NCBI RefSeq assembly: GCF_003002815.1
Contig: NZ_PVTF01000023.1
Location: 1-64,000 of the forward strand
From: Umezawaea tangerina
GTDB taxonomy: Bacteria > Actinomycetota > Actinomycetes > Mycobacteriales > Pseudonocardiaceae
DNA length: 64,000 bases
Direction of reading: 5' to 3'
Part shown: piece after piece, positions 18,972 through 59,390 of the stretch
How positions within the stretch are numbered: the first letter of the stretch is position 1
Layout: the number at the start of each line of letters is the position of its first letter
Made by a program: the position numbers and the translations under genes
The notes under the pieces: generated by a model
The model's database searches: none
Seen by the model: only the letters and a program-made list of their open reading frames with translations
What the model was told of the DNA's origin: nothing

Positions 18972-19135
18972 GTTCTGGTTTCCTCTCTGGCAATACCGGG
19001 TCGACCCGGCCATATCATAGAACACGTGTTCGATGCCGAAACGTCAGGCTCGAGCGGCGCGGACGTCAGCACCGGCGTCGTGCGGGACATCCTTGCACTG
19101 CGGGTGGGTGGAGCGGGCGGGGGTTGAGGGAAAGA

Positions 19136-26406: not shown

Positions 26407-26422
26407 GGGTTGGAGGTCTTGG

Positions 26423-26559
26423 GGGAAGCCCGGCCCCCGGTGCGCGATTGTCTCAATGCTTCACCCTTGTTTGTCAAGACGATAAAGCCATCTTGACAAA
26501 CAAGGGTGAAGCAGGAGGGCGCTGTTTATCGGGGGCGGGAGGGGATCTGGCTTCGCCAG
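26423..26559 (+). repeat. Structured repeat family A, copy 2
   Basis: The 137-bp partner of the unit at 19136. It starts 17 bp after the secA2 stop. Stem 26458-26479 pairs perfectly with 26491-26512 around loop cgataaagcca. Positions that are C-G in copy 1 (third, fourth and tenth pairs of the stem) are T-A here on both arms, so base pairing is preserved. The flanks GCGCGATTGTCTCAATG and the segment 26513-26559 are nearly unchanged. Confidence 0.85.
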
Positions 26560-44807: not shown

Positions 44808-44843
44808 GAGATCACCACTTCTTCGGGGTGGGCTTGCGGGTGA

Positions 44844-45614: not shown

Positions 45615-45644
45615 GCCCACGACGCTAGCGAGGGGCACGTGGGT

Positions 45645-45754
45645 CAGCACATGTGTGACCAGCACATAACGGCGTATTGCTTCATGTGCCCGGCCGACAG
45701 TCCGGATTGTGATTCTCGGCTTATGCAATACCTGGTGCAATCACCCCTGGTGCA
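45645..45754. promoter_or_regulatory. Promoter region with two sets of direct repeats
   Basis: The 195-bp gap between bdhA (-) and the small ORF (+) holds CAGCACAT twice (45645 and 45660, 15 bp apart) with an inverted ATGTGC at 45684 and a CACGTG at 45636, on the bdhA side. On the other side CTGGTGCA occurs twice (45732 and 45747, also 15 bp apart). The first set suits the PucR-type regulator; the second may control the small ORF. Confidence 0.5.
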
Positions 45755-45809
45755 TGAGTACTCTTCATTGATCCGTTCGGGGGACGACCACGTACTTGGG
45801 GGTAACTAA

Positions 45810-45959
45810 ATGTCATTAACGCCGATCTACGACGACGTCATGCGCGAGCTCGACGGCATCATGGCAGCCAGCAAGGCGAAGCAGGCCCAGGTCGCGGCGG
45901 ACACCGCGAACGCGGAGAAGGCCGCCGAGCAGAAGCTCGACGACCCCCTCGCCAGCTAG
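45810..45959 (+). CDS. Small 49-aa protein with TTA as third codon
   Basis: ATG 45810, after GGGGGTAACTAA, opens a 49-codon frame ending TAG 45957-45959. Third positions are almost all G or C and the product is a highly charged amphipathic helix (MSLTPIYDDVMRELDGIM, then AASKAKQAQVAADTANAEKAAEQK and DDPLAS). Codon 3 (45816-45818) is TTA. No family recognised. No Cys and few Ser/Thr, so not an obvious lanthipeptide precursor. Strong codon bias and a tidy upstream region support a real gene. It stops 13 bp before the end of the convergent LCP gene. Confidence 0.65.
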   Translation: MSLTPIYDDVMRELDGIMAASKAKQAQVAADTANAEKAAEQKLDDPLAS

Positions 45960-45972
45960 CGGACCCGGAGAC

Positions 45973-46986
45973 CTAGCCGGGCTGCTGGAGCAGGTCCGCG
46001 GGGACCGGCTCGTCCTTCTCCAACGCGCCGAACAGGCGCAGGGCGTTCTCCCGGTCCCACTGCACGACCGAGCCGACCCCGTCCAGCGTCGGCGTGCTGC
46101 CGATGGGCACGGTCGCCGTGTCCACGCCGCCACCCATGCCGAACGCCAGGCCCACCAGGTTCTGCAGGTGGTCGCTGTCGTCGACCGAGATGGCGTCCGT
46201 GCTGGCGAACAGCAGCGGGAACGCCCGGAACGGGTTGGCCAGCGTGCCCACGCTCGTCGCCCGCTCGGACAGCGCGGCGAGGAACTTGCGCTGGTTCTGC
46301 ACGCGCTGGAGGTCCGCCGTGGCGAACGCCCTGGTGCGCACGTAGCCGAGCGCCTGGGTGCCGTCCAGCTCCTGGCAGCCCGCCTTGAGGTCGAGGCCCG
46401 CCAACGGGTCCTGCATCGGCTCGTCGATGCACATGTCGACACCGCCGACGGCGTCCACGATGCCCGCGAACCCGCCGAAGCCGATCTCCATGTAGTGGTC
46501 GAGGTGCAGCCCGGTCGCGGTCTCGACCGTCCGCGCCAGCAGCGGCGCGCCGCCGAGCGAGAACGCGGCGTTGATCTTGTTCTTGTCGTTGCCCGCGATG
46601 TCCACATAGGAGTCGCGCGGCAGGCTCACCAGCGTCGCCTTCCCGGAGCCGTCCGGGATGTGCAGGATCATGATGGTGTCCGTGCGCTTGCCGCCCGCGT
46701 CACCGGTCGACAGCGCGTCCTTCTGCTCCTGCGTCAGGTCGTCGCGGGCGTCCGAGCCCACCAGCAGCCAGTTGGTGCCGGGGGTGTCCGCCGGTCGGCC
46801 CTCGTAGTCCGGCAGCGCGTCGGAGCGCTTCAGCGACGAGTCGACGTAGAACCACAGACCGACCACGGCCAGCAACAACACGAACACGACGGCCAGGAAC
46901 ACACGGCCCTTCTTGACCTTGCGCCGCTGCGGCATCGGCCTGCGCGCGGGCGGTTGCTGGTACCCCTGCTGGTATCCAGCGCTCAT
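45973..46986 (-). CDS. LCP family (LytR-CpsA-Psr) cell wall ligase
   Basis: A 337-aa type II membrane protein: proline-rich cytoplasmic N-terminus, basic patch RRKVKKGR, a single TM helix (VFLAVVFVLLLAVVGLWFYV) and an extracellular LCP domain with NWLLVGSDAR, KRTDTIMILHIP, SLPRDSYVDI, KINAAFSLGG and GYVRTRAFATADLQRVQNQ. LCP enzymes attach arabinogalactan, teichoic acids or other polymers to peptidoglycan from polyprenyl-phosphate carriers. Single gene. Confidence 0.94.
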   Translation of the reverse strand: MSAGYQQGYQQPPARRPMPQRRKVKKGRVFLAVVFVLLLAVVGLWFYVDSSLKRSDALPDYEGRPADTPGTNWLLVGSDARDDLTQEQKDALSTGDAGGKRTDTIMILHIPDGSGKATLVSLPRDSYVDIAGNDKNKINAAFSLGGAPLLARTVETATGLHLDHYMEIGFGGFAGIVDAVGGVDMCIDEPMQDPLAGLDLKAGCQELDGTQALGYVRTRAFATADLQRVQNQRKFLAALSERATSVGTLANPFRAFPLLFASTDAISVDDSDHLQNLVGLAFGMGGGVDTATVPIGSTPTLDGVGSVVQWDRENALRLFGALEKDEPVPADLLQQPG

Positions 46987-47069
46987 GTCGCCAACCCCGA
47001 TCTGGATGGATGTCTTCGGTCAACCGGTCTTGCACCTAGAGACGCGGCGCAAGCGGAGAGGTTGCCACC

Positions 47070-47459
47070 TTAGTCAGTCAGCGGCAGGACGAGCGCCCCG
47101 AGCAGCCGGGTGAGCTCGGCCTCCGGGTCGGCCGTGAGACCGGTGTGCGTGGGCGACGTCTGGACCACCGTGCTGCGCGGCGCGGTCAGCCAGCGGAACC
47201 GCTGCCCCTGCGTCGTCCCGGACACCGGCCCGGCCTCCCGCGCGCCGTCGCACGACGTGCCCAGGTGCGCCAGCGTCGCCTCCAGCAGCTCCACGTCGAA
47301 CCCCGGATCCAGCGCCTTGACCCGCTGGGCGTCCACGAACGTCTTGGCGCGCAGGAACTTCAGCTCCGGGCAGTAGAGCAGGACACCGACGTTCGCGAAC
47401 TCGCCGCGCTCGGGCCTGGGCACCGCCCGCAGGACCGCGTACTCAAACACGTGCGGCAC
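47070..47459 (-). CDS. DUF3037 family protein
   Basis: A 129-aa protein with the DUF3037 start FEYAVLRAVPRPERGEFANVGVLLY and the central FVDAQRVKALDPGFD. Its GTG lies inside the end of the HipA-like kinase gene (17-bp overlap), so the two are translated together. DUF3037 proteins regularly pair with HipA-like kinases; the partner relation resembles a kinase with a small regulatory or antitoxin subunit, but the role is not proven. Confidence 0.88.
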   Translation of the reverse strand: MPHVFEYAVLRAVPRPERGEFANVGVLLYCPELKFLRAKTFVDAQRVKALDPGFDVELLEATLAHLGTSCDGAREAGPVSGTTQGQRFRWLTAPRSTVVQTSPTHTGLTADPEAELTRLLGALVLPLTD

Positions 47460-48237
47460 GGGCCACCTCCAACGCCTCGACCCACGCCCGCGGACCGGCC
47501 AGCCGGGCCGCGAAGTACGCGAGGTACGCCTCCCGCACGGCCGGCGCCCCCTCGAACACCTGGTCCTGCGCCAACCACTCGTCCGGCACCAGCGCCAGCA
47601 CCTCCCGCAGCAGCTCCGGGGTGACCTTCGCGGCCAGCTCGGCGTCGACGTCCGCGAGCGGACCGGCGAACGGGAGCATCAGGTGGTCGGCGGCGTCGAA
47701 CCGGTACTCCTTGGCGGGGAAGCGATCCGCGCGCCAACCGTGATGGAAGTAGAGGGCGGCGCCGTGGTCGATCAGCCAGAGCTGCCGGTGCCACAACAAG
47801 GTGTTCGGGTTGCGCCAGCTGCGGTCGACGTTGACGGTCAGACCGTCGAGCCAGAGGAGCCGGGTGGCCGTCTCCTGGTCCGGTTCGCGCACGACGGGGT
47901 TGTAGTCGAACGAGCCGGGCAGGTAGTCCAGGCCGAGGTTCACGCCACCGCTCTTGCGGAGCAGGTCCTGGATCTCCTCGTCGGGCTCGGAGCGGGCCAG
48001 CTCGGGGTCGAGGTCGACCAGGACGATCTCGGGGACGCGGAAGCCGAGGCGGCGGGCGAGCTCGCCGACGACGATCTCGGCGATGAGGGCTTTGACGCCC
48101 TGGCCTGCGCCGCGGAACTTGAGGACGTACATGCCGAGGTCGTCGGCTTCGACGAGGCCGGGGAGGGAGCCGCCTTCGCGGAAGGGGGTGACGTACCGGG
48201 TGGCCGCGACCGTCCGCAGGCCGTTGGGGGATTCCAC
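47443..48237 (-). CDS. HipA-like kinase
   Basis: A 264-aa kinase-fold protein. YVLKFRGAGQGVKALIAEIVVGELAR holds the ATP Lys and helix C Glu region, and LLWLDGLTVNVDRSWRNPNTLLWHRQLWLIDHGAALYFHH (read in parts) gives the HipA-type catalytic NxDR and the IDHG metal site. It lacks the N-terminal HipA domain and is shorter than HipA (about 440 aa). GTG start. It overlaps the DUF3037 gene. Toxin activity is possible by analogy with HipA-type kinases; no HipB-like HTH gene is adjacent. Confidence 0.87.
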   Translation of the reverse strand: MESPNGLRTVAATRYVTPFREGGSLPGLVEADDLGMYVLKFRGAGQGVKALIAEIVVGELARRLGFRVPEIVLVDLDPELARSEPDEEIQDLLRKSGGVNLGLDYLPGSFDYNPVVREPDQETATRLLWLDGLTVNVDRSWRNPNTLLWHRQLWLIDHGAALYFHHGWRADRFPAKEYRFDAADHLMLPFAGPLADVDAELAAKVTPELLREVLALVPDEWLAQDQVFEGAPAVREAYLAYFAARLAGPRAWVEALEVARAARV

Positions 48238-48320
48238 GCGGACATCATGGTCTGGGGGTGGGGGTTTCGCGAACTGGTTGGTGGGTGGGGGTGGTGGGTG
48301 GAGAGTTGGTTTGGGTGGGG

Positions 48321-48473
48321 TTGTCGAGGCGTAGCGAGTTCGTCTGGGTGCGTGGCTGGGTGGGTTGTGCGTGGTTGTCGAGGCGTAGCGAGTTCGTTTA
48401 GGTGCGTGGCTGGGTGGGTTGTGCGTGGTTGTCGAGGCGTAGCGAGTTCGCCGGGGTGCGTGGCTGGGTGGGG
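48321..48473. repeat. 54-bp tandem repeat, about 2.8 copies
   Basis: Unit starting TTGTCGAGGCGTAGCGAGTT repeats at 48321, 48375 and 48429, each ending TGGCTGGGTGGG with minor changes in the middle (GTCTGGG, GTTTAGG, GCCGGGG). It lies 84 bp upstream of the HipA-like kinase start in its 509-bp 5' gap (48238-48746), which otherwise contains only repeat family B and a G/T-rich stretch. No protein-like frame is seen. Confidence 0.88.
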
Positions 48474-48491
48474 GTTACGACCCGCGGTGGT

Positions 48492-48608
48492 GTGGTCGAT
48501 TTGACTTGGGGCCCCTCTTTTTGGGCCTCGTCGGGCGAAAAAGGGCAGGTGGTAGAGCCTGCCCGCCGACCAATTTTAGGCCCAAAAACCCCAAGTAAAA
48601 TCGACCAC
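48492..48608. repeat. Structured repeat family B, copy 1
   Basis: A 117-bp element folding into four nested helices. H1 48492-48511 pairs with 48589-48608 (19 of 20). H2 TTTTTGGGCCT 48518-48528 pairs with 48578-48588. H3 GTCGG 48530-48534 pairs with 48566-48570. H4 GGGCAGG 48543-48549 pairs with 48558-48564 with loop TGGTAGAG. Single-stranded GCGAAAAA and CAATTTT segments are shared with the copy at 56006. It sits 138 bp past the SGNH hydrolase stop. Confidence 0.85.
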
Positions 48609-48746
48609 GGTTGCGTGCTTTCGTTGCGTACCAGCGGCTTGCGCGGGTCGGACTTTGGTAGGCCTGACTTTGGTGGGTCTGGCTTTGTGTCTTGCTCTCC
48701 AGCGGCTTGGGTGGGCTCTGTCCGGTTGCCGTTGCTTTCCCTCTGT

Positions 48747-49499
48747 CTACCGCTCGCCGAGTGCTGATTCCAGGGCCTTGAGGTAGGCGAGCTGGCCTTG
48801 TTTGGTGGGGTGGTAGGAGTCTTCGAAGGGGACGGTGATGCCGTTCAGCCAGGGGTCCGCGGAGCAGATGCCGTGGTTGGCGAAGGGGGTGCGGAGGTCG
48901 ATGTAGGTGGCGCCGGCGGTGGTCGTGGCGGATTTGACGACGTCTGCCAGGAGGTCGGCGCCGGTGTTGATGGCGGTGCGCTTGGTTTCGGTGAGGCCGG
49001 CGGCGCAGGAGGTCGGTTCGAAGAGGTGGGGGTAGCCGAGGACGTAGGTCTTGGCGGCGGGGGCGGCCTTGTTGAGGGCTGTGAAGAGTTGGGTGAGCTT
49101 GGCGGGGAGCTCGTCCCTGGTGGTGGTGTTGGCCTTGTCGACGGCTTGCAGGCAGGCGCGGTCGGACTTGAGGGAGCAGGTGCTCATGACGTCGCTGAAG
49201 CCGATGTCGTTGCCGCCGATGGTGAGCGTGACGAGGCCGGTCTCGGGGGTGAGGGTGGGGAGTTGGCGTTCCAGGACCTCGCCGACGGTGGCGCCGGAGC
49301 AGGCGGGGAACTGGAAGGAGGCGGGGCTGTGGGCGTCCTTCCACAGGTTGGGGTAGGCGAAGGCGGTGCGGCCGCAGCCGCCGCTGGAGCTGCCGGTTCC
49401 CACGCCCGCGGCGTAGGAGTCGCCGAGTGCGGCGTACTCCGGTGCGACGGGCGCGGGGACCATGACCAGGCTGAGGACGAGTGCGGCGGCGATACCCAT
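48747..49499 (-). CDS. Secreted SGNH/GDSL hydrolase
   Basis: A 250-aa protein with a signal peptide (MGIAAALVLSLVMVPAPVAP) and the four SGNH blocks: YAALGDSYAAGVG (Ser), ACSGATVGEVL (Gly), TIGGNDIGFS (Asn) and EDSYHPTKQGQ (Asp and His). Cysteines in SGGCGRT, FPACSG, STCSLKSDRACL and TSCAAG are those that form disulfides in the Streptomyces-type lipase/esterase (SCO7513-like) branch. It is probably a secreted lipase or esterase. Confidence 0.93.
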   Translation of the reverse strand: MGIAAALVLSLVMVPAPVAPEYAALGDSYAAGVGTGSSSGGCGRTAFAYPNLWKDAHSPASFQFPACSGATVGEVLERQLPTLTPETGLVTLTIGGNDIGFSDVMSTCSLKSDRACLQAVDKANTTTRDELPAKLTQLFTALNKAAPAAKTYVLGYPHLFEPTSCAAGLTETKRTAINTGADLLADVVKSATTTAGATYIDLRTPFANHGICSADPWLNGITVPFEDSYHPTKQGQLAYLKALESALGER

Positions 49500-49540
49500 G
49501 ACCTAGCGGTACCACTGTGGACAGTCCCGGCGGTAGGGCG

Positions 49541-50683
49541 TTAACCCAGCCGGGTGGGGACCACGCAGACCGGGATCGGGGTCGACAGCGGGGTGCCGGT
49601 GGGGCGCAGGCGGCCGGTGGCCAGGTCGACCCTGAACGAGGTGACGGTGTTCGAGTTCTGGTTGGCCGCGAACAGGAATCGCCCGGTCGGGTCGAACGTG
49701 ATGTGCCTGGGGAACTTGCCGCCGGTGGGCACGGTCTCCACGAAGCGCAGCCGGGCGCCGCCCTGGTCGACCGCGAACAGCGCCACGCTGTCGTGGCCGC
49801 GGTTGGACAGGTAGACGAAGCGGCCGTCGGCGGAGACGACGACCTCGGCCGGGTAGTTGCGCGGGGTCGCGGGGGTGCCGATCGGGGTGGTGCGCAGGGT
49901 CTGCGCGGGGGTCAGCAGGCCGCGTTCCGGGTCGTAGGCGGCCGCGACGATCGTCGAGTCCAGCTCGTTGGCCAGGTAGGCGAACGAGCCGGACGGGTGG
50001 AACGCGAGGTGGCGCGGACCGGCGCCGGGCTTGACCTTGGCGGTGCCGACCAGGGTCAGCTTCCCCGTGGTGGTGTCCAGCCGGTAGCTGTAGACGGAGT
50101 CGGTGCCAAGGTCGACGGCGAGCAGGTGCTTGCCCGCGGGGTCCGGCAGGACCTGGTGGGCGTGCGGGCCCTCCTGGCGCTCCTTGTCCGGCCCCGAGCC
50201 CTGGTGCTGCACGAGGTCGACGCGGGCGCCCAGGCCGCCGTCGGCGCGCACCGGGTGCACGGCGACGCTGCCGGAGGAGTAGTTCGCGCTCAGCAGGTAC
50301 CGGCCGCTGGGGTCCAGGGCCAGGTGGCACGGGTCCGCGCCGCCGGTGCTCTGGCTGTTGATCACCCGCAGCCCACCGCCGGCACCGATCGCGATCGAGG
50401 TCACCGCGCCCGCGGACTGCTCGTTGACCGCGTAGAGCGTGCGCCCGGCCTCGATGACGAACGACGGGTTCGCGACACCGGGGAACACGCCGGTCTGCCG
50501 CAGCTGACCGGTGGTCTGGTCGTAGGCCGCGAGGCCGATCCCCGTCCCCCCGCCCGACCAGGTCGTGTACGTCCCCAAGTACGCGGTGGTCTCCGCGCGT
50601 GGTTGTGCCGCAGCGGCCTCACCGGTCACCAGCATCCCCGCCCCAACGCCCACGGCTCCGAGGAACCTTCGCCTGTCGATCAT
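49541..50683 (-). CDS. Tat-exported lactonase family beta-propeller protein
   Basis: A 380-aa protein starting MIDRRRFLGAVGVGAGMLVTG, a twin-arginine signal. The rest is a seven-bladed propeller of the Pgl/carboxymuconate cyclase family: YLGTYTTW, repeated DPSGRYLLSANYSSGSVAV, HPSGSFAYLANE and DPTGRFLFAANQNSNTV. Cytoplasmic relatives hydrolyse 6-phosphogluconolactone; an exported member must act on another lactone or bind a ligand outside. ATG 50683 puts the Tat motif at the N-terminus; upstream in-frame ATGs exist. Confidence 0.9.
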   Translation of the reverse strand: MIDRRRFLGAVGVGAGMLVTGEAAAAQPRAETTAYLGTYTTWSGGGTGIGLAAYDQTTGQLRQTGVFPGVANPSFVIEAGRTLYAVNEQSAGAVTSIAIGAGGGLRVINSQSTGGADPCHLALDPSGRYLLSANYSSGSVAVHPVRADGGLGARVDLVQHQGSGPDKERQEGPHAHQVLPDPAGKHLLAVDLGTDSVYSYRLDTTTGKLTLVGTAKVKPGAGPRHLAFHPSGSFAYLANELDSTIVAAAYDPERGLLTPAQTLRTTPIGTPATPRNYPAEVVVSADGRFVYLSNRGHDSVALFAVDQGGARLRFVETVPTGGKFPRHITFDPTGRFLFAANQNSNTVTSFRVDLATGRLRPTGTPLSTPIPVCVVPTRLG

Positions 50684-50771
50684 CGCTGCGCACCTCCGCT
50701 TCATCACTGGCGGCGAACCCACAGTGGCCTAGACCACTGCGTCCCGACAAGGGATGCAACGAAGATTGCGC

Positions 50772-51641
50772 CTACCGCAACGGGTCGGCCTCGGTCAACG
50801 TGGCCAGCTCCGCTACGGGGTCGTAGTCCGGCACAGGATACGTCGGCGCGAGGTCGCGCAAGGTGTGCAGCAGCAGCCGGGCGACGGCCCAGTTGCGGTA
50901 CCACTTGCGGTCCGAGGGCACGGCGTACCAGGGCGCGGTCGGCGGCGAGCACTTGGTCAGCAGGTCGGTGTAGGCCAGCTGGTACTGCGACCACTTGGCC
51001 CGCACGGCGAGGTCCTGCGGGTTGTACTTCCACCGCTTCTCCGGCGTCTCCAGCCGGGCCACGAGCCGTTCCTTCTGCCGTTCCGGCGAGATGTGCAGGA
51101 AGCACTTCAGGATCGTCACGCCGGACTCGGCCAGCTCGGCCTCGAAGTCGTTGATCTGCTGGTAGCGGGCCCGCCACACCGACGGCGGCACCAGCTTGTC
51201 CACCCTGGGGACCAGCACGTCCTCGTAGTGCGACCGGTCGAAGAAGCCGATCTCCCCCGGCGTGGGCAGCTGGCGGCGGATCCGCCACAGGAAGTCGTGC
51301 GACAGCTCCGAGCGGGTCGGCTTCTTGAACGACACGATCCGCAGGCCCTGCGGGTTGACCAACCCCGCGACGTGCCGGATCGTGCCGCCCTTGCCCGAGG
51401 TGTCCATGCCCTGGAGCACGACCAGCACGCGCCGCTTCCCGCCGAGGACGCCCTCGGCGTAGAGGTTCTCCTGGAGCTGGTCCAGCTCGGCCGCCATCCC
51501 CGCGAGGTCCTCGGCCGCGTCGGACTTGCTCTTCGGGCCGACCGGGGAGCCCGCCGGGTCGACCGCCGAGAGGTCGACGGCCTCCGGGTCGATCCGGAGG
51601 ACGTCGCGGACGGACTGGACGTGCGCCGACTTCTTCGCCAT
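50772..51641 (-). CDS. ppk2: Polyphosphate kinase 2
   Basis: A 289-aa PPK2-family phosphotransferase using polyphosphate to phosphorylate nucleotides. Walker A is LQGMDTSGKGGTIRHV, Walker B FDRSHYEDVLVPRV, and the lid has PEKRWKYNPQDLAVRAKW. The class I-like single domain with KRWKYNP suggests NDP to NTP or NMP to NDP transfer; the class cannot be fixed by eye. It is divergent from the ornithine aminotransferase gene with a 141-bp promoter region between. Confidence 0.93.
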   Translation of the reverse strand: MAKKSAHVQSVRDVLRIDPEAVDLSAVDPAGSPVGPKSKSDAAEDLAGMAAELDQLQENLYAEGVLGGKRRVLVVLQGMDTSGKGGTIRHVAGLVNPQGLRIVSFKKPTRSELSHDFLWRIRRQLPTPGEIGFFDRSHYEDVLVPRVDKLVPPSVWRARYQQINDFEAELAESGVTILKCFLHISPERQKERLVARLETPEKRWKYNPQDLAVRAKWSQYQLAYTDLLTKCSPPTAPWYAVPSDRKWYRNWAVARLLLHTLRDLAPTYPVPDYDPVAELATLTEADPLR

Positions 51642-51679
51642 CGTCGGAGGGTAACCAGGACGTGATCACTTCGCAGGGC

Positions 51680-51737
51680 GCGCAACGGATCTCCGCCGAT
51701 CATCGCGTTTGCGCAACGAACCTGACACATGCGCAAC
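51680..51737. promoter_or_regulatory. Three GCGCAAC repeats upstream of ornithine aminotransferase
   Basis: GCGCAAC occurs at 51680, 51711 and 51731 in the same orientation between ppk2 and the aminotransferase, 20-31 bp apart, so two lie on nearly the same helix face. Regulators of the Lrp/AsnC type bind such phased arrays, but the protein is not encoded here. Confidence 0.5.
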
Positions 51738-51782
51738 ACCTCACGGATGAAATCGCTGGCATTTCCCCCTTAGCCTTGTCCT

Positions 51783-53018
51783 ATGACCGCCATCGCCGTT
51801 CCCACCACCGTGACCCCGGCCCACGCGGCCGACTACATCGCGCTCGACGAGGCCTGGAGCACGCACAACTACCACCCGCTGCCGGTCGTGATCTCCCACG
51901 GCGAGGGGGCGTGGGTGACGGACGTGGACGGTCGCCGGTACCTGGACTTCCTGTCCGGCTACTCGTCCCTCAACTTCGGCCACCGGCACCCCGCCCTGGT
52001 CGCCGCCGCGGTCGAGCAGCTCGGCCGCGTCACGCTGACCAGCCGCGCGTTCCACCACGACCAGTTCGGCCTGTTCTGCCGCGAGCTCGCCGAGCTGACC
52101 GGCACCGAGATGGTGCTGGCGATGAACTCCGGGGCCGAGGCCGTCGAGTCGGCCATCAAGGTCGCCCGCAAGTGGGCCTACCAGGTCAAGGGCGTTCCGG
52201 AGGGCACCGCGGAGATCGTCGTCGCGGGGGCCAACTTCCACGGCCGGACCACCACGATCGTGTCGTTCTCGACCGACGAGGTCGCGCGCGCCGACTTCGG
52301 GCCGTTCACGCCCGGCTTCACGGTCGTGGCCTACGGCGACGAGCAGGCGCTGCGGGACGCGATCACCGAGCGCACCGCGGCCGTGCTGATCGAGCCCATC
52401 CAGGGCGAGGCGGGCATCGTGGTGCCGCCCGCGGGCTACCTGGCGGCCGTGCGGCGGATCTGCGACGAGAACAACGTCCTCATGGTCGCCGACGAGATCC
52501 AGTCCGGGCTCGGCCGCACCGGCGAGCTGCTGGCGCTCGACGACGCGGGCGTGCGCGCCGACCTCTACACGCTCGGCAAGGCGCTGGGCGGCGGGATCAT
52601 GCCGGTGTCGGCCGTGGTGGGCAGCCGGTCGGTGCTCGGCCTGCTCAAGCCCGGCGAGCACGGGTCCACGTTCGGCGGCAACCCGCTGGCCTGCGCCATC
52701 GGCCGCGCCGTGGTGAAGCTGCTGGCGACCGGCGAGTTCCAGGAGCGCTCCCGCGAGCTGGGCGGGTACCTGCACGCCCGACTGGGTGAACTCGTCGGGC
52801 ACGGCGTGTCCGAGGTCCGCGGCCGCGGCCTGTGGGCGGGCGTCGAGATCGCGCCCGGCGGTCCGAAGGGCCGGGAGGCATCCGAGGCGCTGGCCGCGCG
52901 GGGCGTGCTGTGCAAGGAGACGCACGACTCGACGCTGCGCGTCGCTCCCCCGCTGGTGATCACCCGCGAGGAGCTGGACCTGGGCGTGGAGGCCATCGCG
53001 GCGGTCGTCGCGCGATAG
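51783..53018 (+). CDS. rocD: Ornithine aminotransferase
   Basis: A 411-aa class III PLP aminotransferase converting ornithine and 2-oxoglutarate to glutamate semialdehyde and glutamate. It has DEAWSTHNYHPLPVVISHGEGAWVTDVDGRRYLD (read in parts, typical of ornithine enzymes, with the substrate Tyr), MNSGAEAVESAIKVARKW, VADEIQSGLGRTG and the PLP Lys in TLGKALGGGIMPVSA. Single gene ending before a strong hairpin. It links arginine/ornithine degradation to proline and glutamate. Confidence 0.95.
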   Translation: MTAIAVPTTVTPAHAADYIALDEAWSTHNYHPLPVVISHGEGAWVTDVDGRRYLDFLSGYSSLNFGHRHPALVAAAVEQLGRVTLTSRAFHHDQFGLFCRELAELTGTEMVLAMNSGAEAVESAIKVARKWAYQVKGVPEGTAEIVVAGANFHGRTTTIVSFSTDEVARADFGPFTPGFTVVAYGDEQALRDAITERTAAVLIEPIQGEAGIVVPPAGYLAAVRRICDENNVLMVADEIQSGLGRTGELLALDDAGVRADLYTLGKALGGGIMPVSAVVGSRSVLGLLKPGEHGSTFGGNPLACAIGRAVVKLLATGEFQERSRELGGYLHARLGELVGHGVSEVRGRGLWAGVEIAPGGPKGREASEALAARGVLCKETHDSTLRVAPPLVITREELDLGVEAIAAVVAR

Positions 53019-53032
53019 TCACGATCGGCGTT

Positions 53033-53073
53033 CGGGCACCTCACGATGCGTGAAACACCTCGTGAGGTGCCCG
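53033..53073 (+). terminator. Perfect 13-bp hairpin after rocD
   Basis: CGGGCACCTCACG (53033-53045) pairs with CGTGAGGTGCCCG (53061-53073) around a 15-nt loop. It ends 10 bp before the start codon of the next gene, so it may attenuate read-through or mask that gene's ribosome site. Confidence 0.75.
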
Positions 53074-53083
53074 GACGGCATGC

Positions 53084-54475
53084 ATGATGCCGTTCATGGG
53101 TGAACGGGTACGCGCGCAGGCGGCAGCGGCGCTCGGTCGGTGGACCGAGCCGGAAGAGGTCCTCGCGAACGGCCGCGCGCTGCGCGACGCCGTCGGCCAC
53201 CAGGCGCACCGCAAGGCGCTGCTGGCCGTGGACCGGCCATCCATCCCGGACTACGTGCGCGCCAGCAACCAGGGCAGGCTCGAGGAGCTGATCCCGTTGC
53301 GGATCGGCCGGATGATCGCCTCCCCGTTCTCGTTCTTCCGCGGCAGCGCGGGCCTGATGGCGGGCGACCTCGCGGTGAGCCCGCGCAGCGGCGTGGACGC
53401 CCAGCTCTGCGGGGACGCGCACGCGGCGAACTTCGGCCTCTACGGCACGCCCGAGGGCCAGATCGTCATGGACATCAACGACTTCGACGAGACGCTGCCC
53501 GGCCCGTGGGAGTGGGACCTCAAGCGGCTGGCGACCAGCCTCGTGCTCGCGGGCCGCGAGGGCGGGGTGTCGGAGAAGGGCTGCCGCGACGCCGCCGAGG
53601 ACGCCGTCCGCGCCTACCGGGGCGCGCTGCGGCACCTGGCCGAGGTGCCGTTCCTGGAGTCGTGGAGCGCGCTGGGCGACGAGTCGGTGCTGAGCAAGGC
53701 CAAGGCCGACGACCTGACCGAGGAGTTCAGCAAGGCGGCGTCCAAGGCGCGGAAGAACACCAGCGCGCGGGTCGCCGCGAAGTGGACCCGCAAGGAGGGC
53801 GAGCACTGGCGCTTCATCGCGGACCCGCCCGTGCTCACCAGGATCCCCGAGGCGACCGCCGACGCCGTGCTCGGCGCGCTGCCGTCCTACGTGGACACGC
53901 TGCGCGAGTCCCGCCGCAACCTGATCACCCGCTACGGGGTGTCCGACGTGGCGTTCCGGGTCGTCGGCACCGGCAGCGTCGGCCTGCGCAACTACCTGGT
54001 CCTGCTGCACGGCAACGGCGACGAGGCGCTCATCCTCCAGGCCAAGGAGGCCCGCCCGTCCGCGCTGGCGCCGTTCCTGGGCGCGCCCATGGCCAGGCAC
54101 GAGGGCAAGCGCATCGTGCACGGCGCGCGGCTCGTGCAGGCCGAGACGGACATCCTGCTGGGCTGGACGACCATCGAGGGCAGGCCGTTCATCGTCCGCC
54201 AGTTCCGCAACCGCAAGGGCGAGATCGACGCCACCACGCTCAAGCGCGACGACCTCGACGACTACGGCCGGTTCGCGGGAGCCCTGCTGGCCCGCGCCCA
54301 CACCCGCTCGGTCGACCCCCGGCTGCTCGCGGGCTACTGCGACGACGGCGAGGACCTCGACGAGGCGTTCGCGAAGTACGCGATCGACTACGCCGACCAG
54401 ACCGAGTCCGACCACGCGCGGCTCGTGGCCGAGGTGGACGCGGGCCGGATGCCCGCGCTCATCGAGGAGGACTGA
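53084..54475 (+). CDS. DUF2252 family protein
   Basis: A 463-aa protein with the DUF2252 pattern: ASPFSFFRGSAGLMAGDLA, QLCGDAHAANFGLYG, VMDINDFDETLPGPWEWDLKRLATSL and IVRQFRNRKGEIDA. The GDAHxxNFG and DxNDFDE elements match kinase-like catalytic and metal-binding motifs, so it probably has an aminoglycoside-phosphotransferase-type fold, but no substrate is known. The start is uncertain (ATG 53084, 53087 or 53096). Its 3' end overlaps the convergent ceramidase-like gene by 17 bp. Confidence 0.9.
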   Translation: MMPFMGERVRAQAAAALGRWTEPEEVLANGRALRDAVGHQAHRKALLAVDRPSIPDYVRASNQGRLEELIPLRIGRMIASPFSFFRGSAGLMAGDLAVSPRSGVDAQLCGDAHAANFGLYGTPEGQIVMDINDFDETLPGPWEWDLKRLATSLVLAGREGGVSEKGCRDAAEDAVRAYRGALRHLAEVPFLESWSALGDESVLSKAKADDLTEEFSKAASKARKNTSARVAAKWTRKEGEHWRFIADPPVLTRIPEATADAVLGALPSYVDTLRESRRNLITRYGVSDVAFRVVGTGSVGLRNYLVLLHGNGDEALILQAKEARPSALAPFLGAPMARHEGKRIVHGARLVQAETDILLGWTTIEGRPFIVRQFRNRKGEIDATTLKRDDLDDYGRFAGALLARAHTRSVDPRLLAGYCDDGEDLDEAFAKYAIDYADQTESDHARLVAEVDAGRMPALIEED

Positions 54476-55106
54476 CCCGCACCAGCGCCTCCCGCGCGAC
54501 CAGGAACAGCACGACCGCGTTGAGCAGGTGCCACAGGTAGTGCGTGCCCGACGGCCAGTCGGCGCACCACGTGAGGTCGACCGTCCGCAACGTCAGCGAC
54601 ACCGCGAACACCACCCCGGCGACCGCGAACGCGCGCCAGTGGTGCCGCGTCCCGGTCGGGCCGAAGAACCGCAGCGCCACCGCCAGCCCGACCAGCGCCA
54701 CCCCGGCGGCCAGGTAGGACCCCGAGCCGCCGGGGATGGCCAGCGAGACCGGGACCAGCAGCACACCGAGCACCGCCAGCCCCGGCGCGAACCACCACGC
54801 CCGGTGCCACGGCAGCCCCCAGAACCAGTGCCCGAAGCACACGACGTAGAAGAACACGAACACCGCGATGAACAGCACGTCGAACACGCGCGTCAGCTCC
54901 GTCGCCGCGGTGTGGAACGCCAGGCTCGCCACCCCGATCAGCGCGAGCAGCACGACCAGCGCCCGCATGCTCCGCTGCTCCGGCCGGAACCGGAACCAGA
55001 GCACCGCCGCCGCCAGCAGGAACCCCAGGTTGCTGAGCGCGTTGAGCGGCTCACCCCACAGGCCCGGAGCCAGCCGCTCGCAGTAGGCGTCGACGTAGTT
55101 GTTCAT
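54459..55106 (-). CDS. Ceramidase-family (CREST) membrane protein
   Basis: A 215-aa protein with about seven TM helices. Its start VDAYCERLAPGLWGEPLNALSNLGFLLAAA and the motifs SLAFHTAATELTRVFDVLFI and WPSGTHYLWHLLNAVVLFLV are those of alkaline ceramidases, keeping the Ser, His, Asp and paired His that bind the active-site zinc. Bacteria of this group rarely make ceramides, so its amide or lipid substrate is unclear. Read in the opposite direction to DUF2252 and overlapping its end. Confidence 0.87.
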   Translation of the reverse strand: MNNYVDAYCERLAPGLWGEPLNALSNLGFLLAAAVLWFRFRPEQRSMRALVVLLALIGVASLAFHTAATELTRVFDVLFIAVFVFFYVVCFGHWFWGLPWHRAWWFAPGLAVLGVLLVPVSLAIPGGSGSYLAAGVALVGLAVALRFFGPTGTRHHWRAFAVAGVVFAVSLTLRTVDLTWCADWPSGTHYLWHLLNAVVLFLVAREALVRVSPPR

Positions 55107-55147
55107 GCGGGGGTTTTAGCGCACGGGAATCGGGTACGTCTCGCGGC

Positions 55148-55951
55148 GTGACGGATCTCGGGTGGATCGGCTTGATCAGGCACGGTGAGAGCACCGGCAA
55201 CATCGCGAGGGACCGGGCCGAGGCCGCGGGACTGGACGTCATCGAGATAGCCGAGCGCGACGCGGACGTACCGCTGTCGCCGCGCGGCGAGGAGCACGGC
55301 CGGGCCGTCGGCCGCTGGCTGACCTCGCTGCCCGCCGACCAGCGCCCCCAGGTGATCGTGTGCTCGCCGTACCAGCGGACGCTGGCCACCGCGTGGCTCG
55401 CCACCCGCGAGATCGACTTCCAGCCGGTGCAGGTGGTGGACGAACGGCTGCGGGACCGCGAACTGGGCATCCTGGACCTGCTGACCGGGCACGGCGTGGC
55501 CAAGCAGTACCCCGGTGAGCTGGCCCGGATGCGCAGACTGGGCAAGTTCTACTACCGGCCGCCGGGCGGGGAGTCCTGGGCGGACGTGGCGCTGCGGCTG
55601 CGGTCGCTGCTGTCGGACCTGGAGAGGGACCATCCGGGTGAGCGGGTGCTGCTGTTCGGGCACGAGGTGACGGCTTACCTGCTGCGGTACCTGCTGGAGG
55701 GGGTGCCGGAGAAGGACCTGTTGGCGGTGGCTCGGAGCTCGGTGGTGGCGAACGGGTCGTTGACGTCGTGGAGTCGGGCGGACGCGGAGTTCCGGCTGGT
55801 GCATGAGCATTCGGTGGAGCATCTGGAGGTTGGGGGGTCGGAGGTCGCGGGGTCGGAGGTCGCGGGGTCGGAGGAGCCGACTGTGGAGGTGCCGGTGCGG
55901 CCTAGTACTTGGAGGGCTACTCGGTCCAGGGCTTGGAGGAGGACGGGGTAG
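55148..55951 (+). CDS. Histidine phosphatase family protein
   Basis: A 267-aa phosphoglycerate-mutase-like phosphatase: LIRHGESTGNIARD (catalytic His), SPYQRTLATAWLA, DERLRDRELGILDLLTGHG and LLFGHEVTAYLLRYL (second His). GTG start, divergent from the ceramidase-like gene. The C-terminal tail is odd: GGSEVAGSEVAGSEEP is coded by a short tandem repeat (about 55830-55870) and the last 30 residues are basic and look like read-through of former intergenic DNA. Substrate unknown. Confidence 0.88.
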   Translation: MTDLGWIGLIRHGESTGNIARDRAEAAGLDVIEIAERDADVPLSPRGEEHGRAVGRWLTSLPADQRPQVIVCSPYQRTLATAWLATREIDFQPVQVVDERLRDRELGILDLLTGHGVAKQYPGELARMRRLGKFYYRPPGGESWADVALRLRSLLSDLERDHPGERVLLFGHEVTAYLLRYLLEGVPEKDLLAVARSSVVANGSLTSWSRADAEFRLVHEHSVEHLEVGGSEVAGSEVAGSEEPTVEVPVRPSTWRATRSRAWRRTG

Positions 55952-56005
55952 TTCGGTATTGGATTTGCCGAGGTCGAGGCGGGGTGTCGCTACAGCCGTC
56001 TCCGG

Positions 56006-56125
56006 GTGCGGTCGGCTTGACTTGGGGCCCCTTTTTTGGGCTTCGTCGGGCGAAAAAGGGCAGGTAGTAGAGCCTGCCCGCCGACCAATTTTAAGCCCAA
56101 AAACCCCAAGTCAAGCCGACCGCAC
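56006..56125. repeat. Structured repeat family B, copy 2
   Basis: A 120-bp copy of the element at 48492 in the same orientation. H1 is a perfect 22-bp helix (56006-56027 with 56104-56125). H2 reads TTTTTGGGCTT/AAGCCCAAAAA; H3 and H4 are unchanged, with loop TAGTAGAG. Compared with copy 1, GATTT/AAATC became GGCTT/AAGCC in H1 and GGGCCT/AGGCCC became GGGCTT/AAGCCC in H2, both preserving pairs. It lies in the 455-bp gap 55952-56406 between the convergent phosphatase and ABC-F genes, which also holds a broken gene. Confidence 0.87.
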
Positions 56126-56334
56126 TAGCGGACGAGCACCGCTCGCTTCCAGCTGGGTTGGGTTACCTGTGTTCCGTTCCAGTGTCGTTGGGCGGCTTGG
56201 CTTGGGCGTTGGCCGCCGAAAGCGGCGTCCACGGCGGGGTGGATGCGGGTGTTGAAGGCGGTGGTGCAGGCGGATTCGGATTCCCGGACGTCGATGTAGC
56301 TGAGGCCGCCGTCGGGGCGGCGTAGCCAGAAACG
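56125..56334 (-). pseudogene. C-terminal fragment of an unrecognised protein
   Basis: The minus frame from 56334 to TAG 56125-56127 reads RFWLRRPDGGLSYIDVRESE, then ACTTAFNTRIHPAVDAAFGG and a tail ending WKRAVLVR. It has protein-like composition and high GC3 but no start: an in-frame TGA lies at 56335-56337 and no ribosome site is seen. A different frame just upstream (ESAIHTRNLSGLR) may be the continuation after a frameshift. I cannot name the family. The stop codon falls on the edge of repeat B copy 2. Confidence 0.45.
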
Positions 56335-56406
56335 TCAAGCGTCGGAGCCCGGAGAGGTTCCGGGTGTGGATCGCCGACTCGTGGACCAGGCTGCTGCTGG
56401 TCTGAG

Positions 56407-58026
56407 CTACCGGGCCCGTTGCACGCGGGCCTCGTCCCACACCGGTTCGTCCACCTCGGACACCACGCCGTCGGAGCGGAACAGCAGGAAGCGGTCGAAC
56501 GACCGCGCGAACCAGCGGTCGTGGGTCACCGCGACCACGGTCCCGGTGAACTCCTCCAACGCCCTCTGCAGCGCCTCGGCCGAGTTGAGGTCGAGGTTGT
56601 CGGTGGGTTCGTCGAGCAGCAGCAGGGTCGATCCCGACAGCTCCAGCAGGAGGACCTGGAACCGCGCCTGCTGCCCGCCCGACAGCGACTCGAACTTCTG
56701 GTCGCCGCTCGGTCCGAGGCCGTAGCGGGTGAGGATCGCCATGGCGGCGCCGCGGTCCTTGCCGGTGCGGGTGCCCTCGCCGTGCCAGAGGATGTCGACC
56801 AGCGTGCGGCCGATCCACTCCGGGTGCTGGTGGGTCTGGGCGAACAGGCCCGGTACGACCCGTGAGCCGGTCTTGCACACGCCGGTGTGGGCCACCTCGC
56901 CGCCGCCGAGCAGCCGCAGGAAGTGGCTCTTGCCGGACCCGTTGGACCCGAGCACCGCGACCCGGTCCCCGAAGAAGATCTCCGTGTCGAACGGCTTCAT
57001 CAGGCCGGTCAGCTCCAGCTTCTCGCACGTCACCGCGCGGACGGCCGTGCGACCGCCCCTCAGCCTGGGCGTCACCTTCTCGTCGGTGGGCAGCTCGGGC
57101 GGTGGGCCCGCGTCCTCGTACTTCTTGAGCTTGGCCGACATGACCCGGTACTTGGCGGCCATGACCTCGGAGATGGTGGCCTGGATCTGCAGGGTGCGCA
57201 CGAGCTCCTTGAGGCGTTCGTGCTCCTCGTCCCAGCGGCGGTGCAGCTCCTTGAGCCGTTCGATGCGGGCGGTGCGGGCGGCGTGCCAGGTGCCGAACGA
57301 GCCGCTGTGCGTCCACGCGCTGTGCGCTTCGACGGTGACGACCTGGGTCGCCGCGATGGACAGCAGCTCGCGGTCGTGGCTGACCAGCAGCACGGCCTTG
57401 TCCGTCTCGGACAGCCGCTGCTCCAGCCAGCGCTTGCCGGGCACGTCGAGGTAGTTGTCCGGCTCGTCGAGCAGCAGCACCTGTTCGTGACCCCGAAGCA
57501 ACGCCTCCAGCACCAACCGCTTCTGCTCGCCGCCGGACAGCGTGCGCACGTCGCGGAAGCGGGCGCGGTCGTAGGGGACGCCGAGCGCGGCGACGGTGAC
57601 GGTGTCCCAGAGGACCTCGATGTCGTAGCCGCCGTGCTCGCCCCAGGTGGTGATGGCGTTGGCGTACCTCATCTGGGTCGGCTCGTCGTCGACGTCCATC
57701 AGCGCCAGCTCGGCGGCGTCCAGGTCGAGCGCGGCCTTGCGCAGGCCAGGTGGGGCGACGGCGAGCAGCAGGTCCCGGACGGTGCTGTCGTCGCGGACCG
57801 AACCGACGAACTGCGGCATCACCCCCAGGCCGCCCTGCACGCGAACGCTGCCGGTCGTCGGGGTCAGCTCACCCGAGAGGATCCGCAGCAACGTGGTCTT
57901 GCCGACCCCGTTCGCACCCACCAGCGCGACCACGGAACCGGTACCGACCTTGAACGACACATCGCGAAACAGCTCGCGCCCATCCGGCAGGCGGAAGGCG
58001 AGACCGTTCGCATCGAGGAACCCCAC
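56407..58026 (-). CDS. ABC-F family ATP-binding protein
   Basis: A 539-aa protein with two ABC domains and no membrane segments: Walker A GANGVGKTTL and GSNGSGKSHF, signatures LSGGEQKRL and LSGGQQARF, Walker B LLLDEPDNYLD and LLLDEPTDNLD, and a long charged inter-domain linker (ERLKELHRRWDEEHERLKELV). ABC-F proteins act on ribosomes, in translation control or antibiotic protection. The class cannot be set by eye; the linker is long and helical as in factors that reach the peptidyl-transferase site. Confidence 0.92.
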   Translation of the reverse strand: MGFLDANGLAFRLPDGRELFRDVSFKVGTGSVVALVGANGVGKTTLLRILSGELTPTTGSVRVQGGLGVMPQFVGSVRDDSTVRDLLLAVAPPGLRKAALDLDAAELALMDVDDEPTQMRYANAITTWGEHGGYDIEVLWDTVTVAALGVPYDRARFRDVRTLSGGEQKRLVLEALLRGHEQVLLLDEPDNYLDVPGKRWLEQRLSETDKAVLLVSHDRELLSIAATQVVTVEAHSAWTHSGSFGTWHAARTARIERLKELHRRWDEEHERLKELVRTLQIQATISEVMAAKYRVMSAKLKKYEDAGPPPELPTDEKVTPRLRGGRTAVRAVTCEKLELTGLMKPFDTEIFFGDRVAVLGSNGSGKSHFLRLLGGGEVAHTGVCKTGSRVVPGLFAQTHQHPEWIGRTLVDILWHGEGTRTGKDRGAAMAILTRYGLGPSGDQKFESLSGGQQARFQVLLLELSGSTLLLLDEPTDNLDLNSAEALQRALEEFTGTVVAVTHDRWFARSFDRFLLFRSDGVVSEVDEPVWDEARVQRAR

Positions 58027-58131
58027 GGTGGGCCATCGTCGTCTGACATGTGCCGCGCGACCAAATCATTTGGTATCAGGCCGCGCGGTCGCGACTCCAA
58101 CAGGAGAGGCGCATCACAGGGAAGGAGCTCG

Positions 58132-59268
58132 ATGACCCGCATCGAGTCGGCTCGGTTGGTCGCGGCGCAGCTGGGCGTGCTGGCGACGCTCGGGGCGCTG
58201 CCCGATCTGCCGGACGGGCCCCGCCTCGACCGCTCGCCCACGCCGGTGCACGACGTCAACGGCGAGCTGCTGCTGTGGCGGATCGGCACGTGCGGTGGTC
58301 GCGGCTACGTCGACGTGGCCGCGCACCCGATGCTGGGCGCGCCGCTGGTGGCGGTCGCGCCGGAGGCGGTCTGGGAACCGGAGGCGCTGCTCGCCGAGGC
58401 GCGGGCCAGGGGCGTGGAGCACGACGAGCTGCAGTTCGTGGCCTACAGCTTCCCGAAGCTGGCCGTGCGGTACCTGCTCGACGGGGTCGAGGTGGCGCTG
58501 CTGGAGCTGCACACGTGGGAGCGGGTGCCGCCGGTGCGCGCGGACCTGTCCGAGCCGCCCGGCGAGTTCGAGCGGTGGTCGTTCCTGGACGAGCTGTCCC
58601 CGCAGGCCCGGCACACCCACGACGAGCGGTACCGGCAGCGCAGGGAGGCGCTGACGCACCTGGCGAACGTGCTGCACGTCGACGACCCGGTGGTGCGGAG
58701 GTTCGACCGCAAGATCGTGGAGCAGGTGCTCAAGCCCAGGGTGGACGCGCTGGAGCTGCAGTACTCGCACCGGTTCTCCGACCAGTCGAGCTGCCTCGGC
58801 CTGCTCGGGCAGGAGACCAACCGGTGGAGCTCGGCGGCGAGCGCGCAGATGGTGCTGGACTTCTACCGGTACCGCTACGACCAGGAGCGGCTGGCCGACG
58901 AGCTGGGGCTGGGCACCGAGGAGCACCCCAGCGGGCTGCCCGCGAGCCGCGACTTCGACGTGGTCAGGGCGTTGGAGAACCTCACCGGCAAGTCGCTGTC
59001 GGCGGCCATGTCGACCACGCCGACGTTCGCCGAGTACCGCTCCGAGATCCGCGCGAACCGACCGGTCATCAGCTTCGTCCCCGGTCACTGCCGCGTGGTC
59101 ACCGGCTACACCCGCACCAGCTCGCTGCTGCTCATCGGCGCCAGCTTCGCCGCCCTCCGCGTCGCCGACCCGTGGCCGCCCAAGGCCGGGGTGGTGACCC
59201 GCTGGGAGAACGTGGACACGATCGTCTGCCGGAACACGGTGACGGCGCGGGTGACCCTGGTGCCGTAG
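58132..59268 (+). CDS. Papain-fold (C39/AvrRpt2-like) protein with Ser in place of the catalytic Cys
   Basis: A 378-aa protein from ATG 58132 (GGAAGGAGC upstream). Residues 1-200 are an unrecognised domain. The C-terminal part looks like a papain-like peptidase: GQETNRWSSAASAQMVLDFY aligns with the usual Q-x-WCWAAsaqM block, then PGHCRVVTGY (His319) and RVADPWPP (Asp346). The nucleophile position is Ser233 and the following Trp is Ser234, so classic Cys protease activity is unlikely. It may be a pseudoenzyme or binding protein. There is no signal peptide. The next plus-strand gene starts 122 bp later. Confidence 0.7.
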   Translation: MTRIESARLVAAQLGVLATLGALPDLPDGPRLDRSPTPVHDVNGELLLWRIGTCGGRGYVDVAAHPMLGAPLVAVAPEAVWEPEALLAEARARGVEHDELQFVAYSFPKLAVRYLLDGVEVALLELHTWERVPPVRADLSEPPGEFERWSFLDELSPQARHTHDERYRQRREALTHLANVLHVDDPVVRRFDRKIVEQVLKPRVDALELQYSHRFSDQSSCLGLLGQETNRWSSAASAQMVLDFYRYRYDQERLADELGLGTEEHPSGLPASRDFDVVRALENLTGKSLSAAMSTTPTFAEYRSEIRANRPVISFVPGHCRVVTGYTRTSSLLLIGASFAALRVADPWPPKAGVVTRWENVDTIVCRNTVTARVTLVP

Positions 59269-59390
59269 CGGGCGGCTGGTCCGACGGGGTGGTGTTCGAC
59301 CGCCGACCGTACGCGGAGGCGGGGTGGGGCGACTTCTCCCGTGACGGTCGAAGCCCGGACGGGCACCGGTTCCCGAGCACGGAGGAAGCA

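Follow-up and report, generated by a model that had tools for sequence, protein, structure and literature searches.

Repetitive extragenic palindromes and bacterial interspersed mosaic elements (REP/BIME) are high-copy intergenic palindromes at gene ends, in which one palindrome-flanked chromosomal nuclease gene, RAYT, goes along with many non-autonomous copies. Miniature inverted-repeat transposable elements (MITEs) are short, non-coding and of high copy number, have inverted-repeat ends and are present or absent at orthologous sites. In the HEARO/IscB system with its omega RNA, a structured element lies directly upstream of an HNH nuclease gene and also occurs in solo copies. We know of no function assigned to the DUF222-HNH endonucleases, a large actinobacterial family to which REP13E12 (13E12) of mycobacteria presumably belongs, going by its name. 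Here, a hairpin element of 117–120 bp is described that shares traits with each of these systems. Two copies lie on the plus strand at 48492–48608 (copy 1, type II) and 56006–56125 (copy 2, type I) of a 64,000-nucleotide stretch of Umezawaea tangerina DNA (contig NZ_PVTF01000023.1 of assembly GCF_003002815.1, positions 1 to 64,000; the window), which is located within contig C23 of a 10.68-Mb draft genome of 34 contigs.

The two window copies are probably, and with moderate confidence, solo, non-autonomous ends of a mobile DUF222-HNH hairpin unit that has been amplified in Umezawaea. This reading accounts for most of the observations, with enzyme action, strand exposure and deamination as its postulated steps. 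Like REP sequences, the element occurs in many intergenic palindromic copies; it differs from them in its length, its internal arms, the mutation halo in its flanks and its partner, which elsewhere is DUF222-HNH and not Y1 (no Y1_Tnp was found in three of three genomes of the genus). It resembles MITEs in all the traits named above and is unlike them in its covarying internal fold, without a target-site duplication seen or a known matching transposase; as candidate autonomous partners, DUF222 units with related ends were found in three other genera and none in the own genome. Compared with HEARO/IscB, Pfam gives only DUF222 and HNH and no RuvC for the associated proteins, and the present element also stands inverted downstream of the gene. 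The DUF222-HNH units near the element share their domains, by name, with REP13E12, and DUF222 plus HNH was found at the element outside the genus and not in the own genome. REP13E12/HNH endonuclease/DUF222 has been listed among repetitive elements (PMC10589994); terminal palindromes and solo high-copy derivatives go unmentioned in the portion of that source considered here.

The repeat is not a product of chance, because an exact-core pattern matched 104 times in the own genome (10.7 Mb; 51 forward, 53 reverse) and the reversed control pattern not once. A DNA search of the same genome gave 135 first-look candidates, and all 40 that were scored matched over the full or nearly the full length; the two congener genomes, G001 and G002, gave 107 and 121 candidates (40 scored in each). 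A covariance model (R1) was built from 34 copies of the three Umezawaea genomes and scores copy 1 at 139.5 bits. With this model, the element was detected in 20 genomes out of 150 across the family, which represent 9 of its 46 genera (the own genus counted), with copy numbers that are lower bounds given Infernal's stricter filters and 24 or 30 scored candidates per genome. At order level it was found in 3 of 121 genomes, one of them outside the family, where the sole hit is one weak match in a 78%-complete genome. Rfam gave nothing above the gathering threshold at the copies when the whole window was searched, and the preliminary description of this DNA had not matched the element to a family either; copy 2 had sub-threshold matches only, to five microRNA models and RAGATH-13. 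No description of the repeat was noticed in the open-licence PubMed Central literature at the level of titles and abstract beginnings.

Both copies fold far better than expected by chance. Copy 2 reaches −80.6 kcal/mol (z −11.44) and copy 1 −66.4 kcal/mol (z −7.95), with 0 of 200 dinucleotide shuffles as good in either case, and the minus strand of copy 2, folded as DNA, is likewise far more stable than its dinucleotide shuffles. The preliminary description had placed the copies at the positions given above and had pointed to the pair-preserving changes between them, from GATTT/AAATC to GGCTT/AAGCC in helix H1 and from GGGCCT/AGGCCC to GGGCTT/AAGCCC in H2, as well as to the shared unpaired GCGAAAAA, the RGTAGAG and the CAATTTT; all of this was found again in both copies. 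Further copies covary as well. In the two long helices, H1 and H2, of 34 distinct copies, 98.3% of the cells are paired compared with 87.3% in shuffles (0/500), the covariation score is 0.318 compared with 0.118 (0/500; slid controls 0.018–0.091), and 104 cells are changed on both sides compared with 29, all on a structure derived from the same alignment, which favours the helices. A weaker measure, pairs changed on both sides, gave 12 of 28 compared with 9.8 in shuffles (16/500), and pair types showed no excess in the 34 copies (18 compared with 20.4). Compensatory change in H1 and H2, counted within the genus, goes beyond the controls, as is looked for in a structured RNA or a DNA hairpin; in H3 and H4, pairing is kept by eye while the sequence varies. 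By eye, the plan TTGACnTGGGG-CCCC ... CCCCAnGTAAA, or one near it, recurs with new arm sequences in copies from eight other genera, and those of them that were folded singly form long hairpins whose arms still pair.

The proposed partner comes from other genera. A 21-base pattern found 17 stretches in named genomes, and in Kibdelosporangium aridum five of them hold two inverted, inward-pointing elements with inner edges 1.0–2.1 kb apart. All five of these fetched pairs enclose a DUF222 gene (L141, L147, L148, L143 and L152), which in L141 is split into two frames. HNH clears the Pfam cut-off for L141 and L147, falls short of it for L148 and L143, and is unlisted for L152; g34 and g8 have HNH-like ends by eye only. 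In another genus (G139), an inverted pair lies around a fragment of DUF222, in sequence that is masked in part (L174). Starting from the gene instead, R1 was applied to 30 DUF222 loci in 15 genomes that bear the element and found it at 12 of these loci, in three genera, with L204 being the same locus as L152, the upstream match of L200 partial and L189 cut near a contig end. In all 12 the element lies upstream in gene orientation and on the same strand, and in 6 an inverted copy follows downstream. Conversely, of the 38 element loci that come from other genera, 17 contain DUF222 by tblastn, a count that includes the duplicates L121/L137, L116/L174 and L123/L136. In the outer flanks of 11 units, one of them counted twice (L152/L204), keto (G + T) bases exceed the others on the element strand at 19 of the 22 ends; the left ends of L181, L195 and L200 are negative. 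DUF222 matches number 30 to 61 per genome in some of the genomes examined. A search of DUF222 against solved structures returned one weak match (E 0.0079) and no useful one, and NCBIfam holds no family for the L148 protein.

In L147, two DUF222-HNH genes stand in tandem and in one frame between the inverted elements, with an assembly gap inside. In G002, the DUF222 genes of L167–L172 share a common unit of about 1.2–1.3 kb that has no terminal palindromes of the present family. The genes enclosed by the close copies of L175 and L176 in the own genome are unrelated enzymes, as read by eye from the open reading frames.

Both window copies look like insertions, because neither congener has a copy at the orthologous site. 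For this comparison, window 44001–60000 was aligned with the congeners and blastn was run for the element in their orthologous regions; no copy was found at either site in G002 or G001, the G001 sequence at the copy 2 site holding different genes and a short stretch of N. Between the aligned ends, the copy 1 site (48262–48756) measures about 490 bp versus about 27 bp in G002, and the copy 2 site (55826–56408) about 580 bp versus about 204 bp. Across 400 kb of contig C1, 14 copies were compared with G002: 6 are without a counterpart, 7 have one and 1 is unmapped on its right side. The element at C1 1027768 and at 1094556 has the opposite orientation in G002, and two copies at 1140136/1140368 correspond to one there. 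Of the two profiles offered in the preliminary description, a conserved RNA or a palindromic mobile unit, the second is supported by copy number, by presence or absence at orthologous sites and by the DUF222 flanking elsewhere; on a trans-acting RNA the data are neutral.

The G002 orthologue of window 55826–56408 (L165) carries a different palindrome at the copy 2 site, with GAGTGTTCGAC / GTCGAAC units, and G/T-rich repeats resembling those of L165 also occur near G002 6524500. At C1:1140136–1140485 of the own genome, two opposite copies lie about 115 bp apart, and by eye the flanking DNA changes the sign of its strand bias from one to the other.

At the printed sites, much of the intergenic DNA around the copies is unlike that of the other species, G/T-rich and repetitive. 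The flanks of 32 type I and 10 type II copies consist largely of degenerate tandem units that become less consensus-like with distance. Left units of type I have mean mismatches of 1.6, 3.5 and 4.2 in order from the element and right units 1.6, 2.5 and 2.8, then 1.6 (nine fourth units), a trend that is partly by construction as the consensus was taken near the element. The conserved flanks differ between type I and type II copies.

A one-strand compositional halo, which the preliminary description did not mention, surrounds the copies. For 16 own-genome copies, the element strand is poor in C and rich in G and T over a range of about −400 to +1500. Among 42 own-genome copies (16 from C1 and the window, 26 from the best-scoring others), keto excess was seen at 40 in the 300 bp upstream, at 40 in the 300 bp downstream and at 40 in the interval 300–800 bp downstream, and at 16 in the interval 900–1400 bp upstream. 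In other genera, 15 of 17 copies have keto excess upstream. Third codon positions, counted with a home-made gene finder, carry the same signal: 13 genes that face the downstream side of the element have C.69–.70 and G.21–.23 at 100–400 bp from the stop, compared with C.51–.53 and G.43–.44 in 118 convergent control genes, and 9 genes that end at the upstream side have the opposite bias in their last 100 bp (G.66, C.25). The bias being opposite on the two sides, it is the DNA strand that matters and not the gene strand. In five facing genes of G001, the third-position bias is only slight close to the stop and becomes stronger deeper in the gene. The halo lies beside genes of either direction, in convergent, antisense and sense contexts, and follows the element rather than the gene. 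Of 67 strong skew peaks, 25 lie at most 1.5 kb from an element copy, each with the polarity of the element, and 23 of 32 copies have such a peak.

Two general causes of skew were rejected. Against Rho loading or other selection at the level of messenger RNA, the element polarity is kept beside either gene direction and at both 5′ and 3′ gene ends. For replication-fork direction, a hand count has 25 of 40 listed G002 copies pointing away from position 1, on the assumption that the origin lies near there.

A second palindromic family was found via the skew peaks that lack the present element. It lies in the window at about 19124–19272 and 26411–26559 and has the form GCGCGATTGTCTCAATGCC - variable arm - TTGTCAAGACGRTRAAGCTGTCTTGACAA - complementary arm - GGCAGGAGGGCGCTG; a 400-kb stretch of C1 holds 12 oriented copies. 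Its middle arms vary among the copies and are complementary by eye, TTGACA on its minus strand precedes GACAAT or GATAAT by about 17 bases, again by eye, and it has a similar one-strand halo. The halo around the two hairpin families is strong in the own genome and weaker or uneven in the two congeners. Strong keto-skew peaks also occur at window 950 and 39550, away from the present family; the peak at 39550 is inside called coding DNA, where neither family is seen by eye.

The halo is also visible in substitutions. In the unpolarised comparison with G002, the stretch downstream of copy 1 (48609–49500, largely in the GDSL lipase gene) shows C>T at 42/252 vs G>A at 1/295 and C>G at 44/252 vs G>C at 6/295; upstream the asymmetry is weaker (C>T 3/117 vs G>A 2/137; C>G 14/117 vs G>C 3/137). 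Upstream of copy 2 (55400–56005, the end of the histidine phosphatase gene), the same comparison gives C>T 9/129 vs G>A 4/172 and C>G 17/129 vs G>C 7/172, and downstream of it the comparison with G001 fits the pattern (C>G 30/260 vs G>C 11/208). At six sites without an element in G002, unpolarised rates at 200–400 bp downstream are C>T.128 vs G>A.022, C>G.264 vs G>C.015 and A>G.147 vs T>C.028. With G001 as polariser and an interval of −400 to +1000, for which 10 of 14 copies had data, copies of the present family have C>T 40 vs G>A 12 and C>G 114 vs G>C 43, the second hairpin family has C>T 82 vs G>A 25 and C>G 170 vs G>C 41, and 40 random places have C>T 91 vs G>A 98 and C>G 350 vs G>C 366. 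Codon positions 1 and 2 were compared with far DNA for 14 of 26 elements of both families, namely those to which no copy of equal orientation corresponds in G002; the polarised rates are raised for C>T (6.3-fold), C>A (4.2-fold), C>G (3.3-fold), T>G (2.9-fold) and G>T (2.3-fold; 8 changes for each of the last two), and stand at 1.3-fold for A>G, 1.0-fold for G>A and 0.9-fold for G>C. Substitutions near the elements thus start chiefly from C, the pattern expected from cytosine damage followed by bypass of abasic sites. No strong preference for a 5′ base, as a deaminase context would give, was seen at codon position 3 in C>T (A.077, C.089, G.141, T.082), in a test that is confounded by codons.

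These features can be joined in one model. A complete unit, as in the other genera, would consist of a DUF222-HNH endonuclease gene between two inverted, inward-pointing palindromes. The HNH protein, or a relative that has diverged or been lost, would recognise the folded hairpin and nick or open one strand, and the exposed plus strand of the element may then stay single-stranded for about 0.3 kb upstream and 0.8–1.5 kb downstream. Cytosines of this strand would be deaminated and excised, which would turn C into T or G and, in some cases, into A. Covariation of the helices would be kept as the fold is the putative recognition signal; template-switch correction of hairpins is a possible additional source of it. 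In Umezawaea, the terminator-like stem and T-tract of the minus strand may make insertions that face a gene end tolerable or useful. A further proposal, which is tentative and rather doubtful as a whole, is that DUF222-HNH proteins mobilise a new class of elements with folded hairpins as ends, that solo ends are spread in trans, and that every copy leaves one DNA strand exposed and so acts as a standing, strand-specific cytosine hypermutator of neighbouring genes.

Several observations weigh against the solo-end reading. Its main weakness is that the own genome has no DUF222 match, and G001 has none either; tblastn found none at 108 Umezawaea loci and none in the window. Either the enzyme was lost after the burst, or it is missing from the draft, or another enzyme acts. 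Seven DUF222 genes of G002 are without the element in the fetched 1.5 kb by model and by pattern, 18 of the 30 DUF222 loci and 21 of the 38 element loci stand without the respective partner, and close inverted pairs in Umezawaea (L138, L146, L178 of G002 and C1:1140136/1140368) have no gene between them. No target-site duplication and no sharp unit boundary were found at the copies examined, and the sites gave no clean empty site. The halo is not uniform either. In other genera it is weak or absent downstream (12 of 16 copies positive within 300 bp, 9 of 16 at 300–800 bp), no copy of the present family lies within 1.5 kb of 42 of the 67 strong skew peaks, 9 of 32 copies lack such a peak, and beyond about −400 upstream the bias is weakly reversed. 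Five facing genes of G002 have no bias or a contrary one in their last 200 bp (G3.47–.54, C3.36–.39); the bias expected of them starts no closer to the stop than 400 bp. Among the substitutions, the stretch downstream of copy 2 is contrary in the comparison with G002 (C>G 8/185, G>C 31/227), copy 1062313 is contrary (C>G 2 vs G>C 7), and A>G and T>C show no bias when polarised (13 vs 17). On the G002 branch the same places are reversed (C>T 20 vs G>A 43; C>G 34 vs G>C 121); this could stem from changes that the own genome shares in parallel with G001, or from other elements of G002.

Other explanations were weighed against these data. The missing DUF222 match, the many element loci of other genera without DUF222 nearby and the gene-less inverted pairs would all follow if the repeat were a palindromic MITE or REP-like element moved by another enzyme and merely used or carried by DUF222-HNH genes in some genera. 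This is unlikely, if the most serious of the rivals, in view of the fixed geometry in three genera, with the element upstream on the same strand at 12 of 12 loci, inverted downstream at 6 of 12 and around the gene in five of five K. aridum pairs. Moreover, the Y1 transposase (PF01797) has no match in the three genomes of the genus (of 14 control genomes, 5 were positive), and the reverse transcriptase (PF00078) has no match in the own genome, one in G001 and nine in G002; both were rejected as mobilisers of the own-genome copies, other transposase families lying outside these searches. A dispersed structured RNA gene or cis-acting RNA, whose plus-strand transcription forms an R-loop in which the displaced plus strand is deaminated, would explain the strong covariation, and a G/T-rich, C-poor displaced strand is what a plus-strand R-loop would leave. 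We regard it as distinctly improbable, since no sigma-70-like promoter was matched in window 48200–48760 or 55900–56420, a search that leaves other promoter types uncovered, and since the type-specific conserved flanks and a halo on both sides of the element speak against it; the covariation can also be produced by template-switch correction or by selection that acts on the hairpin as DNA.

A reading with very little probability is that the repeat is a mobile or duplicated intrinsic terminator and nothing else, in which the minus-strand H4 and T-tract end transcription of the gene they face. In both window copies the minus strand indeed has an apical GC stem followed by a T-tract, as in an intrinsic terminator: H4 of copy 1 at 48543–48564 is followed by TTTTT at 48542–48538, and H4 of copy 2 at 56058–56079 by a T-tract at 56057–56053. 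A terminator scan gave 2 sites per region versus 1.5 and 0.6 in shuffles, which is weak alone, and among tandem gene contexts of 44 own-genome copies, 17 are antisense, with the minus strand facing a gene end, versus 5 sense (p 0.017). The stem is, unlike a simple terminator, embedded in a long covarying hairpin, and the A-run that gives the T-tract is missing by eye in several other genera. The long covarying outer stems, the DUF222 flanking and the halo would all stay unexplained, so that behaviour as ordinary terminators only, which the preliminary description had named as speaking against its own view, is borne out in part, by the terminator-like minus strand of the apical helix, and not for the rest. 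Mean keto excess did not differ between the 5 sense copies and the other copies (p.32–.53). Hardly credible, finally, is a halo older than the element, with preferential insertion in a set orientation into DNA that was already G/T-rich. It would produce the same polarity among copies, but the differences from G002 are strongly asymmetric where G002 has no element, and the G001-polarised changes fall on the element-bearing branch.

Within the window, the span from 48492 to 56125 takes in both copies and unrelated genes between them. Both lie beyond gene ends, as had been described before: copy 1 is past the 3′ end of the GDSL lipase gene (48747–49499), which like the HipA-like kinase gene on its other side (47443–48237) is on the minus strand, and copy 2 is between the convergent genes of a histidine phosphatase (55148–55951, plus strand) and an ABC-type ATPase (56407–58026, minus strand). 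The outer arm of copy 1 is GTGGTCGATTTGAC, with a G.A mismatch in the outer stem, and its H2 arms, hand-counted from the sequence, are at 48518–48528 and 48578–48588; copy 2 has the outer arm GTGCGGTCGGCTTGAC and a fully paired outer stem. The conserved flanking repeats and the terminator-like hairpin of the minus strand are additions to the earlier account. Upstream of copy 1, three tandem repeats of period 54 occupy 48323–48450 on the plus strand (GTCGAGGCGTAGCGAGTTCG units at 48323, 48377 and 48431), a module that is found beside several type II copies, and the conserved type II downstream flank follows at 48609–48638 (plus strand, GGTTGCGTGCTTTCGTTGCGTACCAGCGGC). Copy 2 has the conserved type I flanks on the plus strand, upstream at 55985–56005 with a degenerate tandem unit of about 24 bp and downstream at 56126–56153 with AGCGGACGAGC..GCTCGCTTCCAGC, which form a small hairpin by eye.

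The element offers a lead on a possible role of the DUF222-HNH (13E12-like) proteins and on the form of their termini. It also brings to light that bacterial hairpin repeats can be surrounded by a local signature of substitutions polarised by strand, which reaches the amino-acid positions of neighbouring genes, and what keeps one strand exposed at hairpin sites becomes a directly testable question. In practice, neither codon usage nor skew nor divergence close to such repeats can serve as a neutral baseline.

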